Below are positions 22,052 to 63,274 of a stretch of DNA of 64,000 bases, piece after piece. Made by a program: the position numbers and the translations under genes. Under the pieces are notes generated by a model. The model saw nothing but the letters and a program-made list of their open reading frames with translations, made no database searches and had not been told where the DNA came from. The stretch comes from an uncultured Sphaerochaeta sp. (GTDB taxonomy: Bacteria > Spirochaetota > Spirochaetia > Sphaerochaetales > Sphaerochaetaceae), in the NCBI RefSeq assembly GCF_963677075.1, contig NZ_OY781873.1, forward strand, positions 434,001 through 498,000, read 5' to 3'. Position 1 is the first letter of the stretch. Every line of letters begins with the position of its first letter.

Positions 22052-22059
22052 ATACCCCC

Positions 22060-22088
22060 ATTATGACAAGAACGCTGCCACATGGTAA
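22060..22088 (-). promoter_or_regulatory. ispH promoter, leaderless type
   Basis: On the minus strand a -35 TTACCA (22088-22083), a 17-nt spacer and a -10 CATAAT (22065-22060) are followed by only 8 nt before the ispH ATG, implying a 5' leader of 0-2 nt. Confidence 0.65.
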
Positions 22089-22124
22089 GAGTGCGGCAGC
22101 GTATGACTTGCAAGAAGAGACAGG

Positions 22125-23318
22125 TTACTCTGCTTTCTTCTCTTTTTTCTTTGCTTGAGCATTGCTGATCCAGTAAAGCATCGCAGGAGCAAGCAGGTTG
22201 GATGAGTAGGTTCCAAAGAGGATACCAAAGCCCATCTTCACTGCAAAGAGCTGGATGTCACCGGTAGCAAAGATTGCGAGCGGGATGATAGCGATCAAGG
22301 TGGTGACTGCACTCATTACCGTTCTACTCAATGACTGTGTAACACTATGGTCGATATTCACACTCAACGAAGCATCTGGTGCCAATGCCACATTCTCACG
22401 GATACGATCGAAGATAACGATTGTATTGTTCAGAGAGTAACCAATGATGGTCAGCAGCGCTGCAACAGTGATACCAGAGAACTCAAAGCGGAAGAGCGTA
22501 ATTACCGTAAGCATCATCAAGATATCATGCACAAGTGCGATCAAGGATGACACTGCATAAGCAAAACGGAACCTGACCCAGATATAGAGGAGGATCAAGG
22601 CCATTGCAACCACGATGGCGAGGATGGAGCTGGAGAGCAATGTTGCACTGAACTTCGGTCCAATGTAATCACTCTGGAGAACCACAACATTACCAGCACC
22701 GAATGCAGCATTCAATGCATTCTTCACTTCGGTTTCCATGGAATCCTGAGTTGCACCATCCTTGATGCCGAGACGGACCTGGAATGTCTGACTTCCATCC
22801 ACTCCAACGGTCTGTACACGTACATTACCCAGTGAATCCAAAGCAGAACGTACATCTTCAATGTTTGTATTTCCACTGGTCTGGAAGTTCAGCTTGGTAG
22901 GTTCAGCAGAGAGAGTTGCAGGGAATCCATACCCACTGAGGATCTGAGCTGTTTCCAATGACCCGTTAACTACTGCCACATTGATGTTCTGTACTGCACC
23001 AAGTACAGTTGCAAGATCCTGTGCAGTTGGATATTCGGAAGCACTGAAGTTTGTACTGGAAACCCCTTCATCACCGCGAACTTCAAGATTAAGGCCAGAA
23101 CCAGAGACAGCAAGGACTGCATCCTTGTTCCCAGTATAGGTAACTTCCAATCCAATGGGAGCTATCTGAATTCTCTGGCTCAATCCACTTTCAAAATCAA
23201 CACCCAGGTTAAAACCACCCAACACAGCGAAGGATATACCTCCGGCGAGCAGGAGGACTACAGCCAAAGCCCAGGCGTACCAGCGAAGCTTGATAACAGG
23301 AATATCTTTCTTAAGCAT
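22125..23318 (-). CDS. secF: Protein translocase subunit SecF
   Basis: SecF works with SecD and YajC to pull secreted proteins through SecYEG using the proton gradient. The 397-residue protein has an N-terminal transmembrane helix, a long extracytoplasmic region to about residue 210, then five helices with the conserved region around SLIALVHDILMMLTVITLF. It is about 90 residues longer than E. coli SecF, mostly in the extracytoplasmic part. The ATG begins right after the secD stop codon, so the two are translationally coupled. The tail is lysine-rich. Confidence 0.95.
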   Translation of the reverse strand: MLKKDIPVIKLRWYAWALAVVLLLAGGISFAVLGGFNLGVDFESGLSQRIQIAPIGLEVTYTGNKDAVLAVSGSGLNLEVRGDEGVSSTNFSASEYPTAQDLATVLGAVQNINVAVVNGSLETAQILSGYGFPATLSAEPTKLNFQTSGNTNIEDVRSALDSLGNVRVQTVGVDGSQTFQVRLGIKDGATQDSMETEVKNALNAAFGAGNVVVLQSDYIGPKFSATLLSSSILAIVVAMALILLYIWVRFRFAYAVSSLIALVHDILMMLTVITLFRFEFSGITVAALLTIIGYSLNNTIVIFDRIRENVALAPDASLSVNIDHSVTQSLSRTVMSAVTTLIAIIPLAIFATGDIQLFAVKMGFGILFGTYSSNLLAPAMLYWISNAQAKKKEKKAE

Positions 23319-25046
23319 TTAGTTTTTCCTCCAGCTGATGTGTAGCTTCTTGCCCTCACGTTGGGCGACGGTCGCATCAAAGATAAGATGCGAAATAAAC
23401 AATGCAGTAAATACCGAGCTCACAATACCGATAGCAAGGGTATTCGCAAAGCCCTTGACTGCACTACTTCCAAGCTGGGAGAGTACCAGAGCTGCAATGA
23501 TTGTGGTTATGTTTGCATCCATGACAGTCCAGAATGCTTTATCAAATCCTGCCTTGATTGCGGCAACATCACTCTTGCCCAACCTTCGCTCTTCCTTGAT
23601 ACGCTCAAAGATGATGACATTGGTATCAACAGCCATACCCAAGGTAAGGATAAGACCGGCAACACTGGTCAAGGTCAACGTGAAATTGAAAGCAGAGAGA
23701 ACACTGATCATGAAGAACAAGTTCAGCAACAATGCGAGGTTTGCCACAAGGCCACTGACGTGGTAGTAGGCGAACATCAGAATGATTACCAGAGCAAGTC
23801 CAACAGCAATGGCCTTCAAACCAGCCGATACAGCATCTTCACCAAGGGTGGCACCAACAGCCTGCTGGCTGCTGACAATCAGCTCAATGGGAAGCGCAGC
23901 GGTGCGCAGAACAATTGCAAGGTCAGCTGCTTCCTCAGCATCGAACCCGGAAATCTGAACGTTGCTCCTGATCCCTTCATTGATGGTGGCCATGGCTTTA
24001 ACCTTGCCATCCATCACAACTGCCATGGTATCCCCAACGTGGGTAGATGTGAGCTTGTAGAAGATATCGCCACCAAGGCTGTCCAACTGGAAGTTGACCA
24101 CTGGTCGACCGGTGATCCCATCGGTTGCGGTGGTTGCACTCTCAAGGTGGATTCCATCAAGGCCGATCTCATCCTCTACTACTACATAGCTTTGCAATTC
24201 ATCGATACCATACTCGTCACTGACATAGTAACCTGTAGCAATCTTACCAGCAGGTAAGAAGTCAGGCTGCTTCAGTGCACCAGTATCGGTATAAACCTCA
24301 GAAGGATTCTCGGCGTAGAAAGCATTCAACTCAGCGGTAAGGGTGGTGTCTACGATCTTGAAGACGAGGGAACCCTTACCACGGAGGAAGGAGTTAACAC
24401 GCTCTGGGTCTGCAGCACCTGGAATCTCAATGAGAATCTGGTCATCACCTTGTAAACGGATGACAGGCTCACTGACACCAAACTGGTCAATTCGTTTCTC
24501 GAGAATTTCGATATCCTGGCGAATTGCCTCAGAAATCTCACCCGAAGATGCAGTCTTGCCAATCTTATCCTCATAGGAAGCAACATCAGCCTCCAAGAGA
24601 ATACTCATACCACCTTCAAGGTCTAAGCCAAGCTGCAGTGCTTTGTTTCCCAAAGCCTTCAGATCAAGCAAGGACGTGCGGTAATAGGACTCAGCTGAAT
24701 CGAACATATCCTGTTCGTTATAGAACCCAGCAAACAATGCTTCAAGAGTCCAATTACGGGGAACTGAACGCTTCATGGCTTTGTAATTTTCCTTCGCGTA
24801 ATCCTTTAGATAGGAGAACTCAGAAGGCAGGGTTGCCTGTGGGTCCTCAGCGACCAACTCCTTGAGCGAGCGGAGATCGCGTGAAGCCTGTCCACGGGAA
24901 TACTCCTTAATCTGTACATTTGAGCCTGTTGCAAGTTCCTTGGTGTCCTGCGGTACGAATCCATACCAAGCAATCGTGGGATAGAGGAAGAACCCGCACA
25001 ACAAGACGACCACCAGAACGACCACCAGACGACTCCGTTTTTTCAT
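23319..25046 (-). CDS. secD: Protein translocase subunit SecD
   Basis: SecD is a membrane partner of SecF. The protein (575 residues) has an N-terminal transmembrane helix, a periplasmic P1 region containing LGLDLEGGMSILLEAD (about 139-154) and IEIPGAADPERV, and a C-terminal six-helix domain with the TLGMAVDTNVIIFERIKEE motif near 490-508. These are the standard SecD signatures. The start has a Shine-Dalgarno (GGAGAG). It is the middle gene of yajC-secD-secF. Confidence 0.96.
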   Translation of the reverse strand: MKKRSRLVVVLVVVLLCGFFLYPTIAWYGFVPQDTKELATGSNVQIKEYSRGQASRDLRSLKELVAEDPQATLPSEFSYLKDYAKENYKAMKRSVPRNWTLEALFAGFYNEQDMFDSAESYYRTSLLDLKALGNKALQLGLDLEGGMSILLEADVASYEDKIGKTASSGEISEAIRQDIEILEKRIDQFGVSEPVIRLQGDDQILIEIPGAADPERVNSFLRGKGSLVFKIVDTTLTAELNAFYAENPSEVYTDTGALKQPDFLPAGKIATGYYVSDEYGIDELQSYVVVEDEIGLDGIHLESATTATDGITGRPVVNFQLDSLGGDIFYKLTSTHVGDTMAVVMDGKVKAMATINEGIRSNVQISGFDAEEAADLAIVLRTAALPIELIVSSQQAVGATLGEDAVSAGLKAIAVGLALVIILMFAYYHVSGLVANLALLLNLFFMISVLSAFNFTLTLTSVAGLILTLGMAVDTNVIIFERIKEERRLGKSDVAAIKAGFDKAFWTVMDANITTIIAALVLSQLGSSAVKGFANTLAIGIVSSVFTALFISHLIFDATVAQREGKKLHISWRKN

Positions 25047-25073
25047 GATACTCTCCAGATGTCTTTTATAGAA

Positions 25074-25526
25074 TTATTTGTCTTTCTTCTCAGCTTCAGC
25101 TTCAGCAGGGACTTCCTCAACGGGAGCCTCAACACTCTTCTCAGGAGCAGATACCTGCTCTTCTTTTTTGCTCTTCTTCTTGCTGGAAGCAGTTGCACCA
25201 TCGCCCTTTCTGTTTACGATGCTGCTGATAGCATTTCTGGAGAACTCCATACGCGTGTTGTCGTCAACCTTGACCACCACGGTAGTCTCTTTCACCGCAA
25301 CAACGGTTCCATGAATTCCACCAATCGAGACAACCTTATCCCCCTTCTTAATAGAGGCGAGCATCTCCTTGGTTTCCTTGTCCCGCTTCTTTTGCGGACG
25401 GATAATCAAGAAATAGAAGATAACAATGATGAGACCGAACGTAACAAAGGTCGTCATCATCGAACCGGTTGAACCTGCGGCGCCGGCCGTTTCAGGGGCT
25501 GCCATAGCACTAATCAATGAAAGCAT
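25074..25526 (-). CDS. yajC: Preprotein translocase subunit YajC
   Basis: YajC is a small bitopic membrane protein that associates with SecDF. The 150-residue product has one transmembrane segment (about 25-42) followed by RPQKKRDKE and a conserved region ending near VVVKVDDNTRMEFSR. The C-terminal 45 residues are an acidic and lysine-rich low-complexity tail (repeated E, A, P, K), longer than in E. coli. It is the first gene of the operon, 27 nt before secD. Confidence 0.94.
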   Translation of the reverse strand: MLSLISAMAAPETAGAAGSTGSMMTTFVTFGLIIVIFYFLIIRPQKKRDKETKEMLASIKKGDKVVSIGGIHGTVVAVKETTVVVKVDDNTRMEFSRNAISSIVNRKGDGATASSKKKSKKEEQVSAPEKSVEAPVEEVPAEAEAEKKDK

Positions 25527-25607
25527 TGGTAATCCTCACTTTGCATAAAATCGGATGCAGAAAAGAGGCGGAAGAAAACTTCGCATCCAATTTTCCAAGT
25601 ATCGATT

Positions 25608-25637
25608 AAAGTAGCACGTTCGCTATCCACTAGTCAA
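25608..25637 (-). promoter_or_regulatory. yajC-secDF promoter (candidate)
   Basis: A minus-strand -35 TTGACT (25637-25632) and an 18-nt spacer lead to a weak -10 TACTTT (25613-25608). The leader is about 75 nt and ends with a GAGG Shine-Dalgarno. Confidence 0.45.
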
Positions 25638-25665
25638 GTTTCAGTATCAGAAGCCATAAGACGGC

Positions 25666-25694
25666 AAAAAGGGTCGCCGGAAAGCGACCCCTTT
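25666..25694 (-). terminator. Intrinsic terminator after groL
   Basis: A GGGTCGC/GCGACCC stem, extended by A-T pairs, with a 6-nt loop is followed by TTTTT on the minus strand, 15 nt past the groL stop codon. Confidence 0.9.
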
Positions 25695-25708
25695 TGCAGT
25701 GCGCAGGA

Positions 25709-27355
<1,647 letters not shown>

Positions 27356-27455
27356 TTAAAGAATATGTGGTGCGATTACACATAGCAGACCTCTTTAGGC
27401 CTACCGACATGTAAAATACAAAGAAAAATGCGGAGAAGCAAGTAAAAAATACAGA

Positions 27456-28334: not shown

Positions 28335-28999
28335 AAGAACACCCCAAGAAGGAGCACTACCACAAATGGTACGGTGATATTATCCAGACCAAGAGGAGTT
28401 ACTGCCTCCATCACCGCAGCAGAAAGCCCGATCAGCAGAGAGATTCCAAGGACAGCGGAAAAAGAGAGAGCAGAGAAAAAGCCCAATCCAATGAGAGCAA
28501 CCAAGGTACTTACAGAAGCCATGGTTATCGTACCTGCCCAGCTCTTGACCATACCGGGGACCGGTAACTTTTTCTTTCCCCATTTGGTACCCACCAGGGC
28601 AGCCAATCCATCACCATAACCCATGACGAACACAGCAATGCTACAAGCCAAGCTGGAAACAACTCCCTGATATTGCAACACAACCAAGATCAGGAGGGTG
28701 ATGGGGAAGTAAATCAGCCCATAATTTCGTTTCTTGTCATCCATTCCAAGGGCTTTACCCCAATCCAGGAAGGTAAACAAGCTGTTAAGGATAATGAAGA
28801 GAATTGGGCCGATGAGGGCATAGGAAATTGAAGTGAAAAAATTCACTTCAATGAACCACCAATTCGAAACACCAATATGCACAAACTTTCGCATCGCCTC
28901 ACTGGAGAGAGAAGCATACCGCCTCAAGAGGATCCCTACCAAGATGACGAGCGCTAAAAAGGGAAATGACAATGCCAACCCAAGTATATTGCTATTCAT
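28331..28999 (-). CDS. Polyprenol/diacylglycerol kinase-like membrane protein (VTE5-like)
   Basis: This encodes a membrane protein of the dolichol kinase/phytol kinase/CDP-diacylglycerol synthase-like superfamily. Family features are RKFVHIGVSNWW near the N-terminus and GYGDGLAALVGTKWGKKK in the middle. I placed the start at the ATG at 28999 (222 residues) because a candidate promoter ends 7 nt before it and the protein then begins with its first membrane helix. Longer starts exist up to 29065 (GTG, 244 residues) but lack a Shine-Dalgarno. It pairs with the DUF92 gene. Confidence 0.78.
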   Translation of the reverse strand: MNSNILGLALSFPFLALVILVGILLRRYASLSSEAMRKFVHIGVSNWWFIEVNFFTSISYALIGPILFIILNSLFTFLDWGKALGMDDKKRNYGLIYFPITLLILVVLQYQGVVSSLACSIAVFVMGYGDGLAALVGTKWGKKKLPVPGMVKSWAGTITMASVSTLVALIGLGFFSALSFSAVLGISLLIGLSAAVMEAVTPLGLDNITVPFVVVLLLGVFL

Positions 29000-29006
29000 A
29001 ACCGAC

Positions 29007-29035
29007 ATCATGCTAAGAATGTTCAATAAATGCAA
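29007..29035 (-). promoter_or_regulatory. Promoter of the polyprenol kinase gene, leaderless type (weak)
   Basis: A -35 TTGCAT (29035-29030), a 17-nt spacer and a -10 CATGAT (29012-29007) leave 7 nt before the ATG at 28999. Both boxes are only moderate matches. Confidence 0.4.
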
Positions 29036-29086
29036 GAACCCACCGGCTGACATAGGGCAATTCACGCTTTTGGGTGAGTGTGATAA

Positions 29087-29115
29087 TTGACAGCCAAAAT
29101 GGGCCGTGATACCGT
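29087..29115 (+). promoter_or_regulatory. Promoter of the RRM gene
   Basis: A perfect -35 TTGACA (29087-29092), 17-nt spacer and -10 TACCGT (29110-29115) precede a leader of about 150 nt. Such a long leader on an RNA-binding protein gene could itself be a regulatory target. Confidence 0.5.
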
Positions 29116-29270
29116 TTGATTGCTTTCGTTTTTGTGTTGCAGCTGATACGTAATTCCTAATGTTCGCACGCGTGCGTTACTGAATCGCTCCCGCAGACAG
29201 GTAAGAGTTAAAGACTGCGCCACATGAAGCAATATTGAATGACAGGCGCTGCCTGTGAAGGATGCTTTGA

Positions 29271-29549: not shown

Positions 29550-29575
29550 ACCAACCACCATGATTCAGTAACGGG

Positions 29576-29602
29576 AACGGAGCCAAGATGGCTCCGTTTT
29601 TT
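29576..29602 (+). terminator. Intrinsic terminator after the RRM gene
   Basis: The stem AACGGAGCC / GGCTCCGTT with a 5-nt loop is followed by TTTTTT on the plus strand. Confidence 0.92.
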
Positions 29603-32385: not shown

Positions 32386-32405
32386 ATTCCAGGAGAATCC
32401 AAACC

Positions 32406-32876: not shown

Positions 32877-32893
32877 TTACACCTTGTTCAGAT

Positions 32894-39594: not shown

Positions 39595-40313
39595 GGGGGA
39601 ATCTCCTTGAAAAAGGTAGCCAGGTCCTCAAGGGACCCGGTGCGATAACTGGCAATATCCTTGTTCTTGTTGTTTATCAAGTAGTCAGTAACCAGATAGG
39701 CCTCCATGCCCAACTCTCGGGCAACCATATCCTCTTCAACATCGTTACCGACCATGAGACAAGAGGAAGCTTCCTTGCCAAGGGTCTGCAGTATCTGACG
39801 ATAGTAGCCGAGATTTGGCTTTGCATAGTGAAAGTCTTCATAGGTAGTTACGAGTGAGAATTGCGAGGATACAAGATAAGCCCAACCAAGGCGAGCCTCT
39901 GTTGCCTGCCAGGGGAAGAGAGGATTGGTTGCAAGCACCACAGTATATCCCTTTCTCTTGACCTCCTGCACGATTTCCCTTGCCAATAAGGAGGGAGATG
40001 CATGTCTACGTAGAAGACCAAACTCATGCTCATAGAATGGGGCGAACCGCTCATTGAATTCAGCAGCCGCAATGCCACTTGCCTCTTCAAACACTTGGTC
40101 GAACCGTTCCTTGTTGGACAGGGATCCATCATTCAAGACCATGGCGGTAATACCTCGCTGTAATGCAGCCAAGAGCAACTCAGGGGAATACCCGAGCTCT
40201 TGTCCTTTTATTACAAAACGAGAGAAGTAATCCTGGATGAATTGATCTTGATCAAGTGGCAGCAAGGTTCCATCAAGATCAAAGAGTATTGTATTGATAG
40301 GTTGTCTTGTCAT
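39582..40313 (-). CDS. HAD-family hydrolase
   Basis: A cytosolic haloacid-dehalogenase-type phosphatase of 243 residues. Motif I FDLDGTLLP (11-19) supplies the two catalytic aspartates. Motif II lies in VVLATNP, motif III near HYAKPN and motif IV in MVGNDVEED. A small helical cap after motif I makes it subclass I, similar to phosphoglycolate or related phosphatases. It is followed by the DMT transporter gene. Its promoter lies so close to the ATG that the mRNA should be almost leaderless. Confidence 0.87.
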   Translation of the reverse strand: MTRQPINTILFDLDGTLLPLDQDQFIQDYFSRFVIKGQELGYSPELLLAALQRGITAMVLNDGSLSNKERFDQVFEEASGIAAAEFNERFAPFYEHEFGLLRRHASPSLLAREIVQEVKRKGYTVVLATNPLFPWQATEARLGWAYLVSSQFSLVTTYEDFHYAKPNLGYYRQILQTLGKEASSCLMVGNDVEEDMVARELGMEAYLVTDYLINNKNKDIASYRTGSLEDLATFFKEIPPCNQ

Positions 40314-40322
40314 TGTTCGCAG

Positions 40323-40351
40323 ATGATACGCTCTTTACCAGAAGGCGTCAA
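40323..40351 (-). promoter_or_regulatory. HAD gene promoter, near-leaderless type
   Basis: On the minus strand -35 TTGACG (40351-40346), 17-nt spacer and -10 TATCAT (40328-40323), each one base off consensus, leave 9 nt before the ATG; the leader would be about 3 nt. Confidence 0.72.
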
Positions 40352-42445: not shown

Positions 42446-43734
42446 GCCTCTCCTGCCGCTTGGTACACGATATCCACCAGTTCAGCTATTCTATCACATT
42501 CTACTGAACAATAGGCGAGTCTTAGGGTAACATCGGCAATATTGATGCATCCAACCTGATATTTATCAAGTAAATGCCTACGTAGTTGCTCTGCACTTCC
42601 CTTGCAATCAAATGCCATGAAGTACCCACTGTTGAACGGATGAGGTTTGAGTAAATCGTTACCTTCATGCTTCTTCAAGGCTTCCTTGAGCGTACGGTAG
42701 CGTCTCTCCATCTCCACCTTGGCTGCCAACTTATCAGATTCATACTGCGCTCCAGAACGCATCGCCTTGAGCAGTAAACTCTGACCTGGGCGGTCACAGT
42801 TGGAAACGGTACTTCTAATGATACCCAACGTCTTCTTGTTCAAGGCATCATAGTGTTCTTCACTTAGGTCCTTGCTTCCATAGGTAATGAATCCAATGCG
42901 AAAACCCCAGACCATATCTTCCTTGGTGGCAGCATCACACTTGACAGCAAGAATATTTGGATGGGCATCACAAAGCAGAGAGAACAAGCTCTCAGTGGCC
43001 GAGTCATCCTCAAAGAAGAGGCCAAAGTAGGCATCATCACTGAGTACCATCAGCTGCATGCCCTCTTCAGCAAGCGAAACAAGGGTGTCTGCGATAGCCT
43101 GCATCTCATGCTTGGTTGGGGTATATCCGGTCGGGTTGTTGGGGAAGTTGAGTAGAATTCGTGCCTTCTTATCGGGTATTCCGGCCAATACTTCCCGCAT
43201 ACCATCCACATTGAAGCCACCTTCAGCAGTATAGAGGTCGAAGGTCTTGATGGAAGCTCCTGTTTGATGGGCAAAGATCAGCTCATAGTTATCCCAGGCA
43301 AGGTTGGGAATCACCAAGGTGTCTCCATCCTGGACAAAAAGCTGAGCCATCATCTGCAGCCCATGTGTCAGTCCAGCGGTTACAGCCGGAAGGCTGAAGG
43401 TCTTTCCTTGCAGGGTTGGATTCTTGACCAACATCTGTTCTTTCCATAAAGCCCTGAGAGCGGGATCCCCGCCACCTGGTGCATAGGAAAACAATTCGGA
43501 GGGCTTGAAGGCGTTATCAGTAAACTGATGATAAATGTCCGTCAAATACATCGGTTGCCCACCGGATGTAGCCATCCCGATGGTGGCATTGAACCGAGTG
43601 GCTTTTTTGCCGGCTTCGGCGCTTTGGGCGACGATCCCCTTGGGGAAAAACATCCTTCGTCCTACGTCGGAGAGCATTGCGTCCACGATAGTTCCCTGCA
43701 ACGTCTCATTCAGTTCTTTTGCTAGTACATGCAT
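42436..43734 (-). CDS. PLP-dependent aminotransferase, class I/II
   Basis: A fold-type I aminotransferase of 432 residues. The substrate-binding NFPNNPTGYTP (about 199-209) is clear, the cofactor aspartate/tyrosine region is SDDAYFG (about 239-245), and the likely PLP lysine is in DAATKEDMVWGFRIGF. Its N-terminal 90 residues are longer than in AspC, so it belongs to a less studied subgroup. Start chosen at the ATG with a GGAGG Shine-Dalgarno 7 nt away. Amino acid specificity cannot be told from sequence. Confidence 0.87.
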   Translation of the reverse strand: MHVLAKELNETLQGTIVDAMLSDVGRRMFFPKGIVAQSAEAGKKATRFNATIGMATSGGQPMYLTDIYHQFTDNAFKPSELFSYAPGGGDPALRALWKEQMLVKNPTLQGKTFSLPAVTAGLTHGLQMMAQLFVQDGDTLVIPNLAWDNYELIFAHQTGASIKTFDLYTAEGGFNVDGMREVLAGIPDKKARILLNFPNNPTGYTPTKHEMQAIADTLVSLAEEGMQLMVLSDDAYFGLFFEDDSATESLFSLLCDAHPNILAVKCDAATKEDMVWGFRIGFITYGSKDLSEEHYDALNKKTLGIIRSTVSNCDRPGQSLLLKAMRSGAQYESDKLAAKVEMERRYRTLKEALKKHEGNDLLKPHPFNSGYFMAFDCKGSAEQLRRHLLDKYQVGCINIADVTLRLAYCSVECDRIAELVDIVYQAAGEAWN

Positions 43735-43796: not shown

Positions 43797-45902
43797 CTAA
43801 AAAGAGAATTCGCCTTGCATTTCTTCCCTCTTCTTCTCTTCTCCTCCCAACATGGCAAGGAAGGTTGGCTCATCCACAATGGTTATCCCGATTTCCTGTG
43901 CCTTCTTGAGCTTGCTGCCCCCTCCACTACCGGCAAGCAGGTGGGTTGTCTTGCTTGTAACAGCACTGACCGTTCTCCCACCCCGCTTAAGTACTTCATC
44001 CATTGCCTTGGATCGAGGATTGAAGTGTTCGAAGGAACCGGTAACGCACCACACCTGGCCAGAAAAGCTTTCATTCACCAAGGCATGTGCATCTTCCTTC
44101 TCCTCCATTGCCAAGCCGAAACTCGCCAACGCAGCAATACGCTCCTGCATCGTGGGATCATTCAATGCATCAATATAGAGCTTTGCACTCTTCTCCCCGA
44201 TCTGCTTGATGCTGGTAAGCCGCTCCATATCCTGACGCCTGGCTACATCAAGGAGCTTTTCCATGCTGTCCAGACCAGACTCAATCAAGATTTGGGCACC
44301 TTTTTTGCCAAGCTCAGGGATGCCCAAGGAGATAAGCACCTGGGTGAAGCTCCTTTTTTTGGATTCTTCAACACCCTTTTCAAGCAGGAGAATCTTCTTC
44401 TCCCCAAAACCACTCAACTCACCAAGGACCTTTCTATAATCAATCCGGTAGATATCCGGGATATCCTGCAAGACTCCTTGCTCAATAAGAACAGCTGCCG
44501 TCTCAGGACCGAAGTTGTCGATATCCATTCCCCCCTTGGAGATAAAAAACTCTATACGACCCCGTACCTGCGCAGGGCACTGGGGGTTGGGACAAAAGGT
44601 ATGTGCTCCCTTCTCCACCAATCCCGTACCGCATACAGGGCAGAAGGGATCCATCGTATAGACTCCCTCAGAGTTCTCATTCTTCTCAATCACCCGCTCT
44701 ACAGCTGGAATGACATCCCCTCTACGGGAAATCTCCACCACATCCCCAAGTGCCAATTCCAACATATTGATGTAATCCTGGTTGTGGAGTGTGATATTGC
44801 TGATGGTGGAACCAGCAACCTGAACAGGCTTTACCCGTGCAACCGGGGTGACCCGTCCCGTTCTCCCAACCTGCAGATCGATGGAAAGCAAGGTTGTCTG
44901 AGCCTGTGGAGATTCAAACTTGTAAGCCATTGCCCATCGTGGATGATGGGCTGTATAACCGAGTTGAGAACGGACCTCAAGTTCATTTACCTTGGCCACC
45001 AGGCCGTCTATTTCATACCCGAGTGAAGCACGTCTGTTGGTATGGTGCTGAATATAGGTGGCGATATCATCATAGCTGCCACCAAATCCATCCAGATGTG
45101 CCTCTTGTAGATGTGCCTTTGCCCTCTCTGCAGATTTGGTAAAGTAACCGAAGTTTGGATTCACCCGAAAACCATAGTGAACCAGCCTGCTGAGAATGGA
45201 GAGATGATCCTTGATCTCAGTCTCACCATCCCAGAAGCCTTCATAGACAAATATCTGGAGGGGAACTTTTGCAACCTCACTGCTCTTGATCCTTCTGATA
45301 GTCCCGGCAGCAAGGTTTCTTGGATTTGCATAGGGAACCTCCATCTGGGAGTTGATCGTTTCAAACTTGTCTTTCGGAAGATAGACCTCACCCCTAACAG
45401 CCACAGTCACCGATTCACTCAACCGCAATGGAATGGAAGCAATGGTCTTCACATTGGCCGTTACATCATTACCAATGGTCCCATTGCCTCGAGTTACAGC
45501 CCGTACCAGATACCCTTCCTCGTAATAGAGCACAATGGAAATGCCATCAATCTTCTCCTCGATGACAATCCCAAGATCACGGGAAACCTTTGTTTCCGTT
45601 CGCTCAATCCAGGAAAGCAGCTCACTATCGGCATACACCTTGTCAAGGCTCAGCACCGGGATGGTGTGTTGCACTTCGGGAAACGTTGCATCCAGATCAC
45701 TGCCAACCCTCTGGGTGGGGGAATCTGGAAAACGCAGGGAGGGATACTGACTCTCCAAATTCTGTAACCGGTCGAAGAGACGGTCATACTCTGTATCGCT
45801 TACCACGGGCTGGTTATCAACATAGTATGCCCTCTGGTAGCGTGAAAGCTGTTCTATCAGGGAACGAACCTCATCGAGGTGTGATGATTCATGGGTATTC
45901 AT
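43797..45902 (-). CDS. ligA: NAD-dependent DNA ligase
   Basis: LigA seals nicks during replication and repair using NAD+. The 701-residue protein has the NAD-binding Ia domain, the adenylation motif EEKIDGIS (the lysine of KxDG), an OB fold, a four-cysteine zinc finger (CPVC...CPNPQC), helix-hairpin-helix repeats and a C-terminal BRCT domain with GSFEHFNPRSKAMDEVLK. The chosen ATG lies 7 nt after a -10 box and has no Shine-Dalgarno, implying a leaderless mRNA. It is transcribed divergently from the xanthine dehydrogenase-like genes. Confidence 0.96.
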   Translation of the reverse strand: MNTHESSHLDEVRSLIEQLSRYQRAYYVDNQPVVSDTEYDRLFDRLQNLESQYPSLRFPDSPTQRVGSDLDATFPEVQHTIPVLSLDKVYADSELLSWIERTETKVSRDLGIVIEEKIDGISIVLYYEEGYLVRAVTRGNGTIGNDVTANVKTIASIPLRLSESVTVAVRGEVYLPKDKFETINSQMEVPYANPRNLAAGTIRRIKSSEVAKVPLQIFVYEGFWDGETEIKDHLSILSRLVHYGFRVNPNFGYFTKSAERAKAHLQEAHLDGFGGSYDDIATYIQHHTNRRASLGYEIDGLVAKVNELEVRSQLGYTAHHPRWAMAYKFESPQAQTTLLSIDLQVGRTGRVTPVARVKPVQVAGSTISNITLHNQDYINMLELALGDVVEISRRGDVIPAVERVIEKNENSEGVYTMDPFCPVCGTGLVEKGAHTFCPNPQCPAQVRGRIEFFISKGGMDIDNFGPETAAVLIEQGVLQDIPDIYRIDYRKVLGELSGFGEKKILLLEKGVEESKKRSFTQVLISLGIPELGKKGAQILIESGLDSMEKLLDVARRQDMERLTSIKQIGEKSAKLYIDALNDPTMQERIAALASFGLAMEEKEDAHALVNESFSGQVWCVTGSFEHFNPRSKAMDEVLKRGGRTVSAVTSKTTHLLAGSGGGSKLKKAQEIGITIVDEPTFLAMLGGEEKKREEMQGEFSF

Positions 45903-45909
45903 AGCCCTA

Positions 45910-45938
45910 ATTGTACGGCTTGCACCCTTGCCTTGCAA
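45910..45938 (-). promoter_or_regulatory. ligA promoter, leaderless type
   Basis: A -35 TTGCAA (45938-45933), 17-nt spacer and -10 TACAAT (45915-45910) on the minus strand leave 7 nt before the ligA ATG. Confidence 0.65.
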
Positions 45939-53571: not shown

Positions 53572-53574
53572 GCC

Positions 53575-55662: not shown

Positions 55663-55713
55663 CTTGCACATTTCACCACAATTACCTATCATCAGTCCCA
55701 TGAGGCACAGAAT

Positions 55714-57097: not shown

Positions 57098-58106
57098 AGA
57101 CCTTCCGCAGGGAAGGGTCCTTGCCCAAGAGCAAACCAATGGACTCCCTAACAGGATAATAGCCATGCTTGGAATTGGCACTGTAGTAGCAATACCAGCA
57201 GGCCTCTTCCTTCTTATAGTGTACATCACAGCTGACAATGTACCGACTGGCCCAACCCATCTGGGGAGGTACCAGAAGCGGTGAGCGATAGGACGGCCTG
57301 AAAGTCACCCCATCGCTACTTTCCAGTTGTATCAGCACAGAAGCCGTCTTTGCCTGCTTCTTGTCCCAATACATTGCACACTCAAAACCGATATATCCGT
57401 CCTCTGCACGAAATACCTTGATGCTTCCTACCGCCATGCTCCGATAGGGATCATCAGGATCCGGGGAGAGCAGTGGTTCTCCCTCGTTCGCAAGAGCATA
57501 TGGCCCCTCAATGGTTGAGGAGATTGCAAGCGCAAAATGGCGACTGGTCTTCTGTTTGGTATCAGGAAGCAAAAGATGGGAAGAGCCAAAGTACAGCCGA
57601 TACCCCGCCCCATTCTTGATAATCTGCGGCCGTGAGATCCGCGGCTTCTTCAATCCATCTGAGGAAAAAGGAACATCTCTACTATCCAGGATGATCTTTG
57701 GCTCACTGAAAAGAATCAAGTCAGAGGAAGAGCACATTTCAAATCGACTATACCGTACTTTCTCTTGCTCTCTTCGTTTCAGCCTTCCCTTCTTCAGGTT
57801 CGGTAAGGAAGCATTATGTTTTTCGTAGATAAGGTAATACACCCCATTCTCTTGGTATATTGAGGGAGAGTGTCCCCGCAAGGCAACCATCTTCCTTGGT
57901 TCCCAGCTTATCCCATTCTCACTGATGAAGTGTTCAATTCCCACCCAGGTATGGCCAAAAAGATGCCATTTCCCATCAGGGCTTTCCTCCGGAAACAAGA
58001 AGAATGGGTCACAGAGCCTCGGCATGTACCAGCGGCTCCTGATGACCGGTTCATCACTGAATGGGTACCAAGATAATCTTGAGAACGTAGAGAGGGACTG
58101 GTTCAT
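57090..58106 (-). CDS. Five-bladed beta-propeller glycosidase-like protein
   Basis: This 338-residue protein has the short WYxPRLCDPFFLF start and blade repeats typical of GH43/GH32/GH130-like proteins (CDPFFLFPEE, RGHSPSIYQENGVYYLIYEK, SRPQIIKNGAGYRLYFGSS, GFECAMYWDK). No signal peptide is evident, so it is probably cytosolic. I cannot assign the catalytic acids with confidence, and it could be a phosphorylase rather than a hydrolase. It follows the small membrane protein gene by 4 nt. Confidence 0.7.
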   Translation of the reverse strand: MNQSLSTFSRLSWYPFSDEPVIRSRWYMPRLCDPFFLFPEESPDGKWHLFGHTWVGIEHFISENGISWEPRKMVALRGHSPSIYQENGVYYLIYEKHNASLPNLKKGRLKRREQEKVRYSRFEMCSSSDLILFSEPKIILDSRDVPFSSDGLKKPRISRPQIIKNGAGYRLYFGSSHLLLPDTKQKTSRHFALAISSTIEGPYALANEGEPLLSPDPDDPYRSMAVGSIKVFRAEDGYIGFECAMYWDKKQAKTASVLIQLESSDGVTFRPSYRSPLLVPPQMGWASRYIVSCDVHYKKEEACWYCYYSANSKHGYYPVRESIGLLLGKDPSLRKVFI

Positions 58107-58110
58107 GGTC

Positions 58111-58398
58111 TCAGTCCTCTCTGCGCTTTGGCTTTCTCTTTCTATTGAAAAGTGGGCTGAGGTTATCCTCCAGATTGAACTTGTTGTTCATCCACTTGAT
58201 GATTCTCGAGTACACCCAGAAACTCCCTCCTATACTTACCAGGAAGGTAAGACCCAACCAGAGAGGAATCAGGGAACTGTTCGGGTCGACAAAGCGGGTG
58301 ATGAGTACAAAGCAGATGATAAAAAGAACCATCATCAGTACAATGTTCAGTACGGTTGCTGCCAACATAAACCAAACGGTGTTCATTTTCTTAGACAT
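58111..58398 (-). CDS. Small two-helix membrane protein
   Basis: I do not recognise this 95-residue protein. It has two hydrophobic helices (about 7-33 and 44-65) followed by a basic tail ending RKRKPKRRED. It starts at an ATG with AGGAAG upstream and overlaps the lspA stop by 8 nt, so it is probably co-transcribed with lspA. Confidence 0.75.
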   Translation of the reverse strand: MSKKMNTVWFMLAATVLNIVLMMVLFIICFVLITRFVDPNSSLIPLWLGLTFLVSIGGSFWVYSRIIKWMNNKFNLEDNLSPLFNRKRKPKRRED

Positions 58399-58921
58399 TG
58401 TTATCTTCCTTCGTTTCAGAGCTTTCAAGGAGCAGACTAGCGGCAAGGAGGATTCCACTGACAACCAGTGAAGCGTCAGCAATGTTCCAGGTTGGCCATC
58501 GCTCAAACCCAAGGAATCCATAGACCTTTACGCTGATAAAATCCACTACCCGAAAACCCCTAAAAATTCGGTCGATCAAATTCCCCGTTCCGCCACCCAA
58601 GAAGAGTGCAAGCACCCACCTCTGAAAAACGGAAAGATGAATCTTCCGTGAAAAGTATACTACACATACCGCTATAACCAAAAGCACTGGCACGATGATG
58701 AAGAACAGCAACTTAACAGCAACCGGAAGCCCATCCCCCATACTGAAAGCAATAGCAGTATTGCGTACATGTACAATCGCAAGGAAATCACCAAGATAGC
58801 GAAACCCTATCGTGTTCTCTGGGATGGTGGCGACCACCCATGCCTTGCTGAGCTGGTCCGAGATAATAATAAAAACGGTGAGCATGAGTGGGATGAATCT
58901 GCTGGTATCTTTCTGTGCCAT
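58391..58921 (-). CDS. lspA: Lipoprotein signal peptidase
   Basis: LspA is an inner-membrane aspartic protease that removes signal peptides from prolipoproteins. The 176-residue protein has four transmembrane segments and both catalytic-aspartate motifs, GGGTGNLIDRI and WNIADA. The start is the ATG 7 nt after a -10 box with no Shine-Dalgarno, so its mRNA should be leaderless. The promoter lies within the 3' end of the Nif3-like gene. Confidence 0.94.
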   Translation of the reverse strand: MAQKDTSRFIPLMLTVFIIISDQLSKAWVVATIPENTIGFRYLGDFLAIVHVRNTAIAFSMGDGLPVAVKLLFFIIVPVLLVIAVCVVYFSRKIHLSVFQRWVLALFLGGGTGNLIDRIFRGFRVVDFISVKVYGFLGFERWPTWNIADASLVVSGILLAASLLLESSETKEDNNV

Positions 58922-58928
58922 GGTGTTG

Positions 58929-58957
58929 ACTATACTATAAGCCAGTGGGGTTGGCAA
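58929..58957 (-). promoter_or_regulatory. lspA promoter, leaderless type
   Basis: On the minus strand -35 TTGCCA (58957-58952), 17-nt spacer and -10 TATAGT (58934-58929) leave 7 nt before the lspA ATG. A second TATAGT overlaps it by one base upstream. The -35 lies inside the end of the Nif3-like gene. Confidence 0.75.
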
Positions 58958-59687
58958 TAAAACAAACCTCAAGGTCGAACGTATCCCTTATATGTTCTGA
59001 GAGCGCCTGAACCCCGAAAATTTCCGTTTGGTAGTGTCCTCCACCAATAACCGTGATACCAGATTCCTGTGCATCGTGGTAGATTTGATGTTCCACTTCC
59101 CCGGTGATAAAACAGTCCAGTCCATCAGTGAGAGCCGCATACACATCACTGCTTGCCCCTCCACTGACGATACCCACCGTTGTAATGGAATCCTTACCGA
59201 ATGGAAGCACCACTGGGTTCTCAAACCCAAGCTGTTCAGCAATCCACCTGGGATCTCTCCCTTCTTTGAGAACACCCTTGTACCCCAACAGGGTACCTTT
59301 ATAGGGAGCAAAGGGCTCAATATCCTGCAAGCCCAGCTTTTCAGCCATGACCACATTGTTTCCCACTTCCGGGTGTGCATCGAGGGGAAGATGAGCTGCA
59401 TACAGGTCCAGATCCCCTTTCAGCAACGTACTGATACGCGTATGGTGTGATCCCGTAATTGGCAGAGGGGTTCCCCAGTAGAGCCCATGGTGCACAACAA
59501 GCAGATCAGCTCCCTCTGTTATGGCTTTCTCAAAGGTAGCTTGGCAGGCATCAACGGCAAAGGCCACCTTACGGACCTCTTTATCCACTCCTCCCACAAC
59601 CAAACCGTTGAGGGATCGGTCCAAACCCTCAAAAGAACCAAGTCCCAGATATGTATCAAGATAGGTAACAAGTTTGCTTCGTTTCAT
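58935..59687 (-). CDS. Nif3-like dinuclear metal-centre protein
   Basis: A 250-residue NIF3/YbgI-family protein, known to form hexameric toroids with a dinuclear metal site. Metal-binding motifs include LLVVHHGLYWG (near 54-64) and the C-terminal GGGHYQTE. Its role is poorly defined, with hydrolase activity reported in some homologues. Start chosen at the ATG 6 nt after a TATACT box; upstream codons have no Shine-Dalgarno. Confidence 0.9.
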   Translation of the reverse strand: MKRSKLVTYLDTYLGLGSFEGLDRSLNGLVVGGVDKEVRKVAFAVDACQATFEKAITEGADLLVVHHGLYWGTPLPITGSHHTRISTLLKGDLDLYAAHLPLDAHPEVGNNVVMAEKLGLQDIEPFAPYKGTLLGYKGVLKEGRDPRWIAEQLGFENPVVLPFGKDSITTVGIVSGGASSDVYAALTDGLDCFITGEVEHQIYHDAQESGITVIGGGHYQTEIFGVQALSEHIRDTFDLEVCFIANPTGL

Positions 59688-59693
59688 GAGCCT

Positions 59694-59722
59694 AGTATAT
59701 AGAGTTGACACCTTTTGTTCCA
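59694..59722 (-). promoter_or_regulatory. Nif3 promoter, leaderless type (weak -35)
   Basis: -10 TATACT (59699-59694) lies 6 nt before the ATG. The -35 at 17-nt spacing, TGGAAC (59722-59717), matches consensus in only three positions. Confidence 0.45.
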
Positions 59723-59733
59723 CCACCTATAGT
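59705..59733 (+). promoter_or_regulatory. Lon-like protease promoter, leaderless type
   Basis: A perfect -35 TTGACA (59705-59710), 17-nt spacer and -10 TATAGT (59728-59733) end 6 nt before the ATG at 59740, so transcription should start at or beside the start codon. It overlaps the divergent Nif3 promoter. Confidence 0.82.
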
Positions 59734-59739
59734 TCCTTC

Positions 59740-61776
59740 ATGACCGATACCAAAAAGCGGGTTCATCCGCTCACCTATGAAGAAGCTTCCTTCGATTTTG
59801 ATCCATTGCTTATCAGTGAATGCCGAGCCTTGGGCAGCAAGGAACATATCGTTGGCCAGCCAAGGGCTCTTCGTAGCCTGGAGATTGGGCTCAGTCTACA
59901 GAAATGTGGATACAACATCTTTGTAAGCGGAGAAGCCACAAGCGGGAGACATGAGGCGGTACGGTACTGTGTCGAGCACCAGAGAAACAATATCGATGCT
60001 ATCAGGGACATTGTCTATGTGTGCAACTTCAAGCAGCCAGACAGCCCCTCTGCCCTCACATTCCGCCCAGGGGAAGGAGAACGCTTCTGTGATGCATGTA
60101 GTGCATTCAATCAGGAACTGCTCTCCCTTACCCAAGACAGCGACCACTTTCTCGAGAAAGCAGAGCATCTTGTAGACCAGCTGGAGCAACAGTTCCCCGA
60201 CAATCGGCAACTCTCCTCATACTTTGCCCATCTCAAGGCAGACCTTGCCCGAGAAGCTCTCCATATCCAGCACCTTGATCAAGAGATGCTCAAGAGTGAC
60301 CCGATAGCACGGAAGTACCAAGCCAATCTGCTGGTCAATCACGCACAGACGAGACAACGGCCCCTGATCATCGAGTCCTACCCTACCTTCGATAACCTTT
60401 TTGGGTCAGTGGACACAGATGAGAAAATACCCCATCTCAGTCTGCATGCAGGATCTCTGCTTGAGGCAGCAGGTGGATTCATCGTCATAGAGGCAGAAAA
60501 ACTCCTTGGAGAGAGTGGCCTATGGGAATCACTCAAACGGTATCTCGATGCAAACGCCCTGGCTTATGAGGCAGGGCTTGTCACCAAGGGGGAGCTGAAA
60601 AGCAAGATGATCAGGCCCCAGGTGGTCCCTCTCCCGATCAAGGTCATTCTGATCGGTAGCGAAGAGGTTTATGATATGCTCTCTGATGAGGATGAGCGAT
60701 TCCTGACGCTCTTCAAGATCTGCGCACAGTTCGATTATTCGATGAAACTCTCCAAGGAGGCAATTGCCCAGAGCATCTGGGCCTTGGATGCCTATGCAAA
60801 GAGCCATCACATGCTCCCTCTTGAAGATAGCGCCTTTGGCCAGTTGCTTCGGTACTCCTGCTGGTATGTGGAGTCCCGCACCCATCTGACAACGCACTTC
60901 TCATCACTGTATGATGTCATTGAGGAAGCTCACTGGTGGGCGAAGCACCATAACCAGGCATCCATCGACGGGGAGCTCATTCTCCGTGTAAATGAGGAGC
61001 GGGGATACATCAACGGCATCAGCGAGAGCAAGATCAATGAAGAGATTCTCAGTGGTGATATGATCATCAGCCTCTCCGGCACAAAAGTCGGGGTAGTCAA
61101 CGGCTTGGCCGTCATGGACCGTGGCAGTGCTTCCTTTGGAACCCCTACGGTCATATCCTGTACGGCCAGCCCAGGAAATGAAGGTATTGTTAATATTGAA
61201 CATGAAGCCGGACTCAGCGGGGAAATTCATGACAAGGGTCTCCTGATCCTGGAGGGATACCTACGCAAGCATTATGCCCGTACCTTCCCACTCTCCATTT
61301 ACGCCGGCATCGCCTTCGAGCAATCCTATGCAGAGGTTGATGGAGATAGTGCATCCTCCAGCGAACTGCTTGCCTTGCTCTCTGCAATCGGAGAGCTGCC
61401 TGTCCGCCAGGATATCGCAGTGACCGGGTCGGTCAATCAAATGGGCTTGATCCAGCCTGTTGGAGGAATCAACGAAAAGATTGAGGGATTCTTCCGTACT
61501 TGTTTGGCAACAGGGCTCACCGGAAAACAGGGAGTAATCATTCCAAAGCAAAATGTCCGCAATCTTATCCTTCCCTATGAGGTACTGAACGCCATCAAGG
61601 AGAAGCAATTCTTCATCTATCCGGTCAGTACCATAGATGAAGCGATGCAGATACTCACCGGAAGGAGTGTCGGTGTTCGCAATGCAAAGGGCAACTGGAG
61701 TACAGGGAATTTCAACTTTGATATTGAAGATAAGCTGAAACGAATGTATGTAGCAGTTACATCCAACCGGGGCTAG
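59740..61776 (+). CDS. Lon-like protease with degenerate ATPase site (LonC-type)
   Basis: A 678-residue S16-family protein. The protease domain at the C-terminus has the catalytic serine in DGDSAS (S537) and lysine in GGINEK (K580). The AAA+-like N-terminal part has a broken Walker A (GEATSGR, 64-70, with R for K) and IVIEAE in place of a normal Walker B, with a long coiled insert (about 130-200). This fits ATP-independent LonC/TTC1975-like proteases. It starts right at the predicted transcription start. Substrates are unknown. Confidence 0.88.
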   Translation: MTDTKKRVHPLTYEEASFDFDPLLISECRALGSKEHIVGQPRALRSLEIGLSLQKCGYNIFVSGEATSGRHEAVRYCVEHQRNNIDAIRDIVYVCNFKQPDSPSALTFRPGEGERFCDACSAFNQELLSLTQDSDHFLEKAEHLVDQLEQQFPDNRQLSSYFAHLKADLAREALHIQHLDQEMLKSDPIARKYQANLLVNHAQTRQRPLIIESYPTFDNLFGSVDTDEKIPHLSLHAGSLLEAAGGFIVIEAEKLLGESGLWESLKRYLDANALAYEAGLVTKGELKSKMIRPQVVPLPIKVILIGSEEVYDMLSDEDERFLTLFKICAQFDYSMKLSKEAIAQSIWALDAYAKSHHMLPLEDSAFGQLLRYSCWYVESRTHLTTHFSSLYDVIEEAHWWAKHHNQASIDGELILRVNEERGYINGISESKINEEILSGDMIISLSGTKVGVVNGLAVMDRGSASFGTPTVISCTASPGNEGIVNIEHEAGLSGEIHDKGLLILEGYLRKHYARTFPLSIYAGIAFEQSYAEVDGDSASSSELLALLSAIGELPVRQDIAVTGSVNQMGLIQPVGGINEKIEGFFRTCLATGLTGKQGVIIPKQNVRNLILPYEVLNAIKEKQFFIYPVSTIDEAMQILTGRSVGVRNAKGNWSTGNFNFDIEDKLKRMYVAVTSNRG

Positions 61777-62554
61777 TGATCTGGTACCAACTGCAGAGCA
61801 TAATCCCTGTGGCTACCGCTACATTCAGGGAACCCTTGGTTCCTCCCATCGGGAGGGTCAATCGTCCAAGGGAGGCTTCACTTGCCTTCAGCAAGGAGGG
61901 ACTGACACCCAGCTCCTCCCCACCGATAATTCCTACCCCTTCCCTCGGAAAGGGAAACTGGGAGAGTTCCGTGCCACCTGTCTCCAAAGCAAAGAGGGGA
62001 AGGGATTGTATCCGCTGCAGCACTACGTCCTCAGGCAGGACCTCATGGTCCACTGTAGCAATACATCCTCTGCTGGTTTTTATCGTACGGGGGTGGTCGA
62101 GCCTCGCACACCCTTCGACCAAATAGATTTTCTGCACTCCAAAGGAGTCTGCACTACGGAATATGGATCCAATATTATAAGGAGAGCGAAGGCGGTCGAG
62201 CACCAGGATATGGGGAAGGATATGGCGAGCTGACACATCAAGCGCTCCCTGATCATCGGTAAGGTCCCAATCGGAGGGTTCACTTCCCAAGACACCAAGG
62301 AGAAAATAGTGGATATCCTCGAGAAGGATTGCCAAATCTCTTCCTTGGACAAAGGGAACTCTTCTTATCAGCGAACGTAACTGCTTTCTTTGTTCCTCAT
62401 CCAACACCTCAGCAAACTGCTGCTCTTCAGAGAGCGTGAGCAGTCCATACAGATACGAGGTGTCCATCTCCTGGGACAACTGATGAAACAGGCTTGCGCA
62501 TTTTCTTACACAAGTCCGACTTTTCAGGCTTCTAAGCTTCTTCAGTGTGATCAT
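61757..62554 (-). CDS. TrmH-family (SpoU) RNA 2'-O-methyltransferase
   Basis: A 265-residue SPOUT methyltransferase. Motif 1 is LDRLRSPYNIGSIFRSADSFG, motif 2 GEELGVS and motif 3 GGTKGSLNVAVATG, which form the knotted SAM site. The N-terminal 100 residues are helical and without a clear match. Target (tRNA or rRNA) is unknown. It overlaps rsmI by 23 nt (start with AGGAA) and the convergent Lon-like gene by 20 nt. Confidence 0.9.
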   Translation of the reverse strand: MITLKKLRSLKSRTCVRKCASLFHQLSQEMDTSYLYGLLTLSEEQQFAEVLDEEQRKQLRSLIRRVPFVQGRDLAILLEDIHYFLLGVLGSEPSDWDLTDDQGALDVSARHILPHILVLDRLRSPYNIGSIFRSADSFGVQKIYLVEGCARLDHPRTIKTSRGCIATVDHEVLPEDVVLQRIQSLPLFALETGGTELSQFPFPREGVGIIGGEELGVSPSLLKASEASLGRLTLPMGGTKGSLNVAVATGIMLCSWYQITSPGWM

Positions 62555-63239
62555 CACGTTCCTGTGCCTGGGAGGGCGCAACCAACAAGGCGAACTCTCC
62601 CTTGATCGAAGGCTTTGCACCAAGTATTTCCATCACCTGGGAGGCAGTTCCCTGCAAGAACTCCTCAAACTTCTTGGTCATTTCCCTTCCCAATACAATC
62701 TGACGTTCCCCATCCAGCTCAGCCAGCTCACCAAGGGTCTTGAGAATTCTAAAGGGCGACTCATAGATGATGAACGCCTCATCACGGCTGAGCAACTCCT
62801 CCAGACGTTTCTTTCTTCGTCCCTTCTTTGGGCTGAGAAATCCTTCAAAGGTGAATGTTTTTCCTACATACCCAGCCACACTGACAAGAGCCGATTGTGC
62901 AGAGACACCAGGAATAGGGACAACAGGAAAGCCAGCCTGGCGAACAGTACTGACCACACGCGCTCCCGGGTCACTGATACCCGGGGTGCCCGCATCACTG
63001 ACAAAGGCAACATCCTTACCTTCTGCCAATAAGCCTACGATGCCTTTTGCAGAGTTGGTCTCATTGTGTGCATGACAGGCAATCAGACGCTTGCTGATCC
63101 CCCAATGGGTCAACAGCTGCTGTGTATGCCGGGTGTCCTCACAGGCGATTATCTCAACGCCTTTAAGCGTCTCAACTGCCCTGTAGGTAATATCATCTAG
63201 GTTTCCAATGGGTGTTGCCACCATATACAAGGTACTCAT
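62532..63239 (-). CDS. rsmI: 16S rRNA (cytidine1402-2'-O)-methyltransferase RsmI
   Basis: This methylates C1402 in the decoding centre. The 235-residue protein begins LYMVATPIGNLDDIT (3-17), contains the DAGTPGISDPG SAM region (about 83-93) and the ACEDTRHT motif. The length is somewhat short of E. coli RsmI (286), mainly at the C-terminus. The ATG has no Shine-Dalgarno and lies 6 nt after a -10 box, so a leaderless mRNA is implied. Confidence 0.94.
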   Translation of the reverse strand: MSTLYMVATPIGNLDDITYRAVETLKGVEIIACEDTRHTQQLLTHWGISKRLIACHAHNETNSAKGIVGLLAEGKDVAFVSDAGTPGISDPGARVVSTVRQAGFPVVPIPGVSAQSALVSVAGYVGKTFTFEGFLSPKKGRRKKRLEELLSRDEAFIIYESPFRILKTLGELAELDGERQIVLGREMTKKFEEFLQGTASQVMEILGAKPSIKGEFALLVAPSQAQERDDHTEEA

Positions 63240-63245
63240 GGATGC

Positions 63246-63274
63246 AGTCTACACGCTCTTAGTACCCCTTACAA
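63246..63274 (-). promoter_or_regulatory. rsmI promoter, leaderless type
   Basis: On the minus strand -35 TTGTAA (63274-63269), 17-nt spacer and -10 TAGACT (63251-63246) are followed by 6 nt before the ATG. Confidence 0.6.

Follow-up and report, generated by a model that had tools for sequence, protein, structure and literature searches.

What mode of gene expression is implied when a promoter ends almost on the start codon? The question is raised by a 64,000-nucleotide stretch of an uncultured Sphaerochaeta genome (positions 434001-498000 of a 3.26-Mb single contig; hereafter the window), in which eight genes have a sigma-70-type -10 box within a few nucleotides (nt) of their ATG: ispH, a putative polyprenol kinase gene, a HAD-hydrolase gene, ligA, lspA, nif3, a Lon-like protease gene and rsmI. 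An earlier note on this DNA took these genes to reflect a regular mode of initiation and not chance. We find the same arrangement throughout the genome and in related spirochaetes. It is very probable that seven of the eight genes (ispH being doubtful) have a sigma-70-type promoter whose -10 box lies 6-9 nt before the ATG, that their messenger RNA (mRNA) would start on the A of the ATG or 1-3 nt before it, and that the bare 5' AUG is likely initiated without a Shine-Dalgarno (SD) sequence, as one of two standing modes in this organism.

At all eight sites the -10 box lies 6-9 nt from the ATG, as the earlier note described, and a -35 element stands beyond a 17-nt spacer at 8/8 (Table 1; scores are log-odds under a promoter model from whose fit the window was excluded). 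Seven of these promoters score well above background and ispH is marginal and fails the model. The claim that none of the genes has a convincing SD stood for seven (duplex +0.8 to -5.9) and not for ispH, which has an SD-like GGGGG beside its ATG (duplex -7.8). Likewise, 6-7 nt proved to be the core of the proposed 6-9 nt range, whereas the 8-9 nt of ispH and the HAD gene belong to the tail of the genome-wide distance distribution. Counted from the start of the box, the distance to the start codon is 12-13 nt in six window genes and 14-15 nt in these two. The nif3 and polyprenol kinase examples had been called weak, and their -35 elements indeed each match TTGACA at only 3/6 positions. Pfam supports the identity of LspA (Peptidase_A8), Nif3, the LonB-like AAA and Lon_C protein, LigA, IspH (LytB), the HAD protein and the RsmI-type methylase; a Pfam scan of the protein called polyprenol kinase gave no match, so that name is the earlier note's only.

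The genome-wide count covers 1.2 Mb from outside the window, sampled as 60 pieces of 20 kb each. Genes were called with a dicodon model that is blind to SD and promoter, giving 1123 genes including those of the window; the caller reproduced 33/36 annotated starts of Escherichia coli. A gene was taken to open a transcription unit if preceded by a divergent gap of at least 40 base pairs (bp) or a same-strand gap above 60, which left 526 unit-opening genes outside the window. When fitted without constraint to all 526, the motif search converged on the SD motif instead, and the final promoter model was therefore fitted to the 208 that lack an SD. The -35 that it learnt begins T (0.83), T (0.78), G (0.82). 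The window, the relatives and E. coli were all held out from training. An initial matrix derived from TAnnnT-box genes had heavily penalised CATAAT-type boxes; it underlies the N-terminus alignments and the by-eye reading of HAD, polyprenol kinase and ispH relatives described below, and the orthologue counts were redone with the final model.

The model-free count already shows a sharp peak. TAnnnT starts 12 nt before the start codon in 41/526 unit-opening genes and 13 nt before it in 20, the remaining distances giving 5-14 per position across 9-23 nt and 11-23 across 24-39 nt. Among operon-internal genes, window included, only 2/398 have the box at 12 nt. At log-odds above 4, the model places 32, 19, 7 and 5 genes at 12, 13, 14 and 15 nt, followed by 0-3 per position at 16-23 nt and 2-12 at 24-45 nt. 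The 63/526 genes at 12-15 nt compare with a mean of 5.8 and a maximum of 11 in 40 shuffles, and operon-internal genes gave 4/374 against 2.25 shuffled. At log-odds above 5, the called ATG starts scored 49/475 and out-of-frame ATGs 6/967. About one in eight unit-opening genes carries a promoter-like sequence abutting its start. With alternative starts allowed and log-odds above 5, such genes number 97 in the 1.2 Mb of non-window sequence, and decoy distances yield 23 in the whole sample, which suggests, by extrapolation, an order of 200 in the whole genome. Scanning 30 of the 68 non-window genes with log-odds above 6 gave 29 Pfam matches of mixed functions and no functional theme among them.

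The window itself follows this pattern and is not a special cluster: with alternative starts allowed, nine of its genes exceed log-odds 4, and the average outside it is 6.5 per 64 kb. The model accepts 6/49 called window starts (shuffled mean 0.27, maximum 3); these six include a gene at 4245 that the earlier note did not list, and the Lon-like and polyprenol kinase genes are missing from them because the caller misplaced their starts (the Lon-like start at 59686). The extra window candidates at 4245 and 43677 have log-odds of 4.1 and 4.4, and that at 43677 resembles an internal ATG.

Promoter distance also divides the genes by their SD. None of the 277 genes with a good SD has a promoter above log-odds 5 at 9-23 nt (5/277 above 4), and 72/277 have one at 24-45 nt; of the genes without SD, 51/208 have a promoter above log-odds 5 at 12-15 nt and 11 at 24-45 nt. 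Since the two groups differ in this way, we read them as two separate modes of initiation with a gap between. Correspondingly, an SD (duplex -6 or stronger) is found in 1/58 genes of the peak and in 59% of the remaining unit-opening genes. The base before the start codon is C or T in 36/41 TAnnnT genes, against 278/465 (p 3e-4), and in 53/58 model-defined peak genes; a pyrimidine at -1 fits transcription starting on the following A. The 16S ribosomal RNA (rRNA) of the window keeps an intact anti-SD 3' end (GGATCACCTCCTT), so both modes can coexist.

Is the arrangement kept in relatives? By their RecG-type protein the nearest are L182 (100%), L179 (98%), L180 (93%) and Sphaerochaeta halotolerans L181 (92%), and the RecG-nearest relatives are Sphaerochaeta and Sphaerochaetaceae assemblies. 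At a threshold of log-odds 4 under the final model, with one near-identical entry counted wherever L182 has the gene, the promoter is present in rsmI 11/11, Lon-like 22/24 (drawn from fetched loci), nif3 24/38, ligA 21/42 and lspA 16/36 orthologues. All 11 lspA orthologues of at least 60% identity pass. The control gene recG gave 2/78 and rsmD 10/62, and decoy distances in the five orthologue sets gave 0-3 at 17-20 and 0-5 at 22-25. The rsmD gene of the window (55714) lacks the box, and relatives L190-L193, L238 and L256 have boxes 6-7 nt before the ATG; here the leaderless mode seems to come and go.

Reading by eye extended this to the weaker sites. The HAD box TATCAT is identical, and 6 nt before the ATG, in the genus relatives L275, L276 and L277. 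CATGAT, CATCAT or TATAGT lies 6-7 nt before the corresponding ATG of the polyprenol kinase gene in 10/10 relatives read (first-matrix scores 4.7-7.5), so its box is weak but conserved. Of 12 ispH relatives read, eight have CATAAT or CATACT near the ATG; in two outlying ones a clear box lies at 6 nt, and in three GGAGG stands beside the ATG. By eye, a GC-rich hairpin with T's after it is conserved immediately upstream of ispH (22066-22102, minus strand); it resembles a terminator for the gene before and overlaps the putative -35. In L190 and L191, nif3 has no -10 at the usual place and an SD, TAGGAGG, stands before an ATG six codons upstream, with the Lon-like promoter opposite intact; this appears to be a natural switch from leaderless to SD-led initiation.

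The model was further applied, unchanged save for base composition, to six spirochaetes (one of the same genus, one of the same family and four of other families). Unit-opening genes with a promoter at 12-14 nt numbered 13/162, 11/174, 10/81, 9/87, 7/100 and 9/78, with a trough of 0.8-1.8 at 16-23 nt; operon-internal genes gave 4/146, 0/108, 0/49, 2/64, 1/42 and 0/62. The same count was 58/526 in the Sphaerochaeta genome itself and 1/156 in 300 kb of E. coli K-12.

These results favour a simple mechanism. Sigma-70 polymerase would start on the A of the ATG where the box lies at 6-7 nt, and 1-3 nt before it at 8-9 nt. Because the mRNA is predicted to begin at or near the start codon, translation would likely proceed without the usual ribosome-binding site, a ribosome with initiator transfer RNA (tRNA) already bound initiating at the 5'-terminal AUG, as has been described for leaderless mRNAs in general (PMC10783764). 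What we infer from the arrangement of box and codon is that the promoters are active, where exactly transcription begins and how translation proceeds.

Could AT-rich upstream DNA simply produce -10-like boxes near the ATG at random frequency? A loose consensus rule gives some room for this: it finds 7/49 called window starts with a shuffled mean of 1.6 and a maximum of 8 over 200 shuffles, which makes the rule weak by itself, and its excess at unit-opening genes is only two-fold (62/526 against 31.3 shuffled). The positional peak, its absence from operon-internal genes, out-of-frame ATGs, model shuffles and E. coli, and the orthologues refute chance for the class, bearing out the earlier note's view of a regular mode and leaving chance a negligible probability, though an isolated weak site like that of ispH may yet be due to it. 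It is also very improbable that the start codons are misassigned, with true starts lying downstream behind an SD and the promoters giving ordinary short leaders. The caller's start does differ from the promoter-linked start in 30/103 strong cases. Against this, Pfam domains begin near residue 1 in several of the proteins (Nif3 1-245, rsmI 3-201), most nif3, lon, rsmI and lspA orthologue N-termini within the genus align at shift 0, and the ligA box keeps 6-7 nt from the ATG in many orthologues whose N-terminus begins 4-5 codons later, following the ATG through such shifts. Somewhat less improbable, and still unlikely, is that the ATG-proximal promoters are real but secondary, the main mRNA starting upstream and its translation relying on some unrecognised signal, for instance binding of ribosomal protein S1 or a leader free of structure. 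S1 domains occur in the genome, and lspA lies 13 nt downstream of nif3, where co-transcription is possible; a secondary promoter, however, would not need a box fixed 6-7 nt from the ATG with a pyrimidine at -1, and the starts of nif3 and the Lon-like gene are only 52 bp apart, a stretch within which each promoter ends at its own ATG.

Several observations weigh against the leaderless interpretation that we prefer, besides the modest excess under the loose rule. The model was trained on the same own-genome genes that it counts. Many orthologues below 60% identity fall short of the threshold (passing: ligA 10/30, lspA 5/25, nif3 16/28), and decoys at 22-25 reach 5 for nif3 and 4 for Lon-like. 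In the genus relative G263 the contrast between operon-internal and unit-opening genes (4/146 vs 13/162) is weaker. Within the window, ispH fails the model, it and the HAD gene sit in the distance tail, and lspA or others may also be transcribed as part of a longer upstream mRNA.

The nif3 and Lon-like genes have starts on opposite strands and two interlocked leaderless-type promoters between them (59685-59742); on the plus strand the order is CAT, 6 nt, AGTATA, 5 nt, TTGACA, 6 nt, GTTCCA, 5 nt, TATAGT, 6 nt, ATG. The start spacing is 51-54 bp in 20/27 locus entries, a set that includes the own genome, two genomes present twice and L079, from outside the family. Of these 20, three (L081, L089, L093) have a nif3 promoter score of only 3.2. 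Spacings in the remaining seven are 128, 283, 77, 74 and 86 bp, plus 25 bp in each of the two relatives that switched to an SD. On the far side of nif3, the lspA -35 sits in the final nif3 codons and its -10 immediately after the nif3 stop (58929-58957), so one stretch doubles as protein code and promoter. As the whole signal is a promoter of about 35 nt that stops at the ATG, it allows close packing of divergent genes, either in this interlocked form (52 bp) or around a shared -35 (62-68 bp).

The second form appeared among divergent pairs elsewhere. The own genome has no excess of pairs that are leaderless on both sides (11 observed, 10.1 expected). Pooling called pairs from seven genomes gave 22 leaderless on both sides, eight of them with 63-68 bp between starts; 8/20 pairs within 40-120 bp fall in this interval (p 5e-5 under a uniform assumption and with the interval picked post hoc). 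In all eight, the two -35 hexamers overlap by 5-6 bp, as TTGnCAA in four, TTGCAA in three and TGGTCAA in one. A strict pattern of this kind, CAT N6 ANNNTA N15-17 TTGNCAA N15-17 TANNNT N6 ATG, occurs in 62/391 Spirochaetia genomes, which are not mutually independent, and in 27/133 genera. Its backward control was zero in every row listed, and a control with 12 nt in place of 6 nt to the start codons found 0/391 Spirochaetia genomes. Twenty strict-pattern sites were fetched, and 20/20 are flanked on each side by an open reading frame of 78 codons or more; of the 40 flanking proteins 20 were scanned and 18 matched Pfam, and the pairings are of many kinds (RsgA, seryl-tRNA synthetase, signal peptidase and others). 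The strict pattern has no match in the own genome, where similar sites have other spacings or another centre (Table 1). A loose form matched at four sites in the own sample (Markov-shuffled, 1.0) and at seven in six relatives (0.2), with none in 1.35 Mb of named loci (0.2 shuffled) or in E. coli (0.2); four of these 11 matches lack an ATG on both sides and look like chance.

Between some divergent neighbours, then, one promoter element seems to serve both leaderless-type starts. We regard the odds as even that Spirochaetia possess a minimal two-way switch, in which a symmetric -35 (TTGnCAA) with flanking -10s and ATGs within 62-68 bp would serve two divergent leaderless genes, polymerase binding in one direction at a time. 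The nif3/Lon-like pair would then be an older, 52-bp interlocked version in which any one initiation event serves either the protease gene or the nif3-lspA unit, never both.

Table 1. Coordinates of the start-abutting promoters, the 16S rRNA gene and shared -35 sites (window positions unless a locus is named)
Feature	Position	Strand	-35	-10	-10 to ATG (nt)	ATG first base	Log-odds	Remark
ispH candidate	22051..22088	-	TTACCA 22083-22088	CATAAT 22060-22065	8	22051	2.6	marginal; -35-like element in hairpin
Polyprenol kinase gene promoter	28999..29035	-	TTGCAT 29030-29035	CATGAT 29007-29012	7	28999	4.8	
HAD-hydrolase gene near-leaderless promoter	40313..40351	-	TTGACG 40346-40351	TATCAT 40323-40328	9	40313	7.6	
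ligA leaderless promoter	45902..45938	-	TTGCAA 45933-45938	TACAAT 45910-45915	7	45902	7.7	
lspA leaderless promoter	58921..58957	-	TTGCCA 58952-58957	TATAGT 58929-58934	7	58921	9.0	
nif3 leaderless promoter	59687..59722	-	TGGAAC 59717-59722	TATACT 59694-59699	6	59687	5.6	weak -35
Lon-like protease gene leaderless promoter	59705..59742	+	TTGACA 59705-59710	TATAGT 59728-59733	6	59740	8.2	
rsmI leaderless promoter	63239..63274	-	TTGTAA 63269-63274	TAGACT 63246-63251	6	63239	6.5	
16S rRNA gene	1072..2611	-						intact anti-SD 3' end
Own-genome similar sites	L015 15479/15543; L045 8354/8422; L047 9031/9098; L062 9618/9684							other spacings, or TTGCAA/TGGTCAA centre

The 16S rRNA gene belongs to a region (1-9460, minus strand) of two tandem rRNA operons, with a spacer tRNA-Ala in one and tRNA-Ile in the other. 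The region also has two 5S genes in a row and, between the operons, an MFS-type transporter gene (3085-4245).

On the reading favoured here, a spirochaete group joins the known leaderless lineages, with genes that can be read from DNA by a rule of box, 6-7 nt, ATG and a pyrimidine at -1. Some orthologues seem to have exchanged one kind of start for the other, leaderless or SD-led, as in nif3 of L190 and L191, which would permit direct tests of the selection behind leaderless initiation. As two-way promoters, the shared -35 units would be compact and without parallel among the matches listed in the searched literature: by title or abstract start, none of the open-licence matches listed describes divergent or leaderless genes whose -35 elements are shared or overlap. 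The interlocked nif3/Lon-like promoters and the -35 shared between divergent leaderless-type starts both appear to be new in that literature. Nor did the open-licence literature on leaderless genes and start sites of spirochaetes hold a transcription start map for Sphaerochaeta among the matches listed.

Leptospira belongs to a different class of the phylum than Sphaerochaeta. In Leptospira interrogans, differential RNA sequencing found about 440 genes with leaders below 10 nt, and transcription and translation starts coincide in 184 and 170 genes at 30 and 37 °C (PMC5243855). Both are thus spirochaetes with leaderless genes, mapped there and predicted from sequence here; that study states that it identified no motif other than sigma-54, whereas the sigma-70-type motif is clear in Sphaerochaeta. 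Leaderless genes are of an already known kind, mapped in Leptospira and predicted for Spirochaetes: according to Zheng et al. 2011 (PMC3160421), bacterial leaderless genes have a TANNNT box about 12 bp upstream and occur in 6/18 Spirochaetes genomes, averaging 3.9% of genes. Its main text does not name Sphaerochaeta. Our genes share that box and distance; in addition, a -35 at 17 nt belongs to the signal here and conservation among orthologues is seen. The class makes up 12% of unit-opening genes before background subtraction, against that average of 3.9% of genes.

In Deinococcus-Thermus, too, a promoter -10 a few bp before the reading frame drives leaderless mRNA, and the -10 motif is reported to suffice there, expression depending only weakly on other sequence (PMC12340547); in Sphaerochaeta the -35 TTG is, at the level of sequence, strongly conserved and not absent. 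The divergent pairs are best set beside the bidirectional promoters of E. coli, which, according to Warman et al. 2026 (PMC12825309), share a -10 and have starts mostly 18 bp apart, 10 and 23 also being common. In both, a short pseudo-symmetrical element would serve two divergent transcripts, polymerase binding in either orientation in E. coli. The spirochaete pairs differ in sharing the -35 (TTGnCAA or TTGCAA), with start codons 62-68 bp apart, and the nif3/Lon-like pair differs again in that it shares neither -10 nor -35, its two promoters being interlocked at 52 bp.

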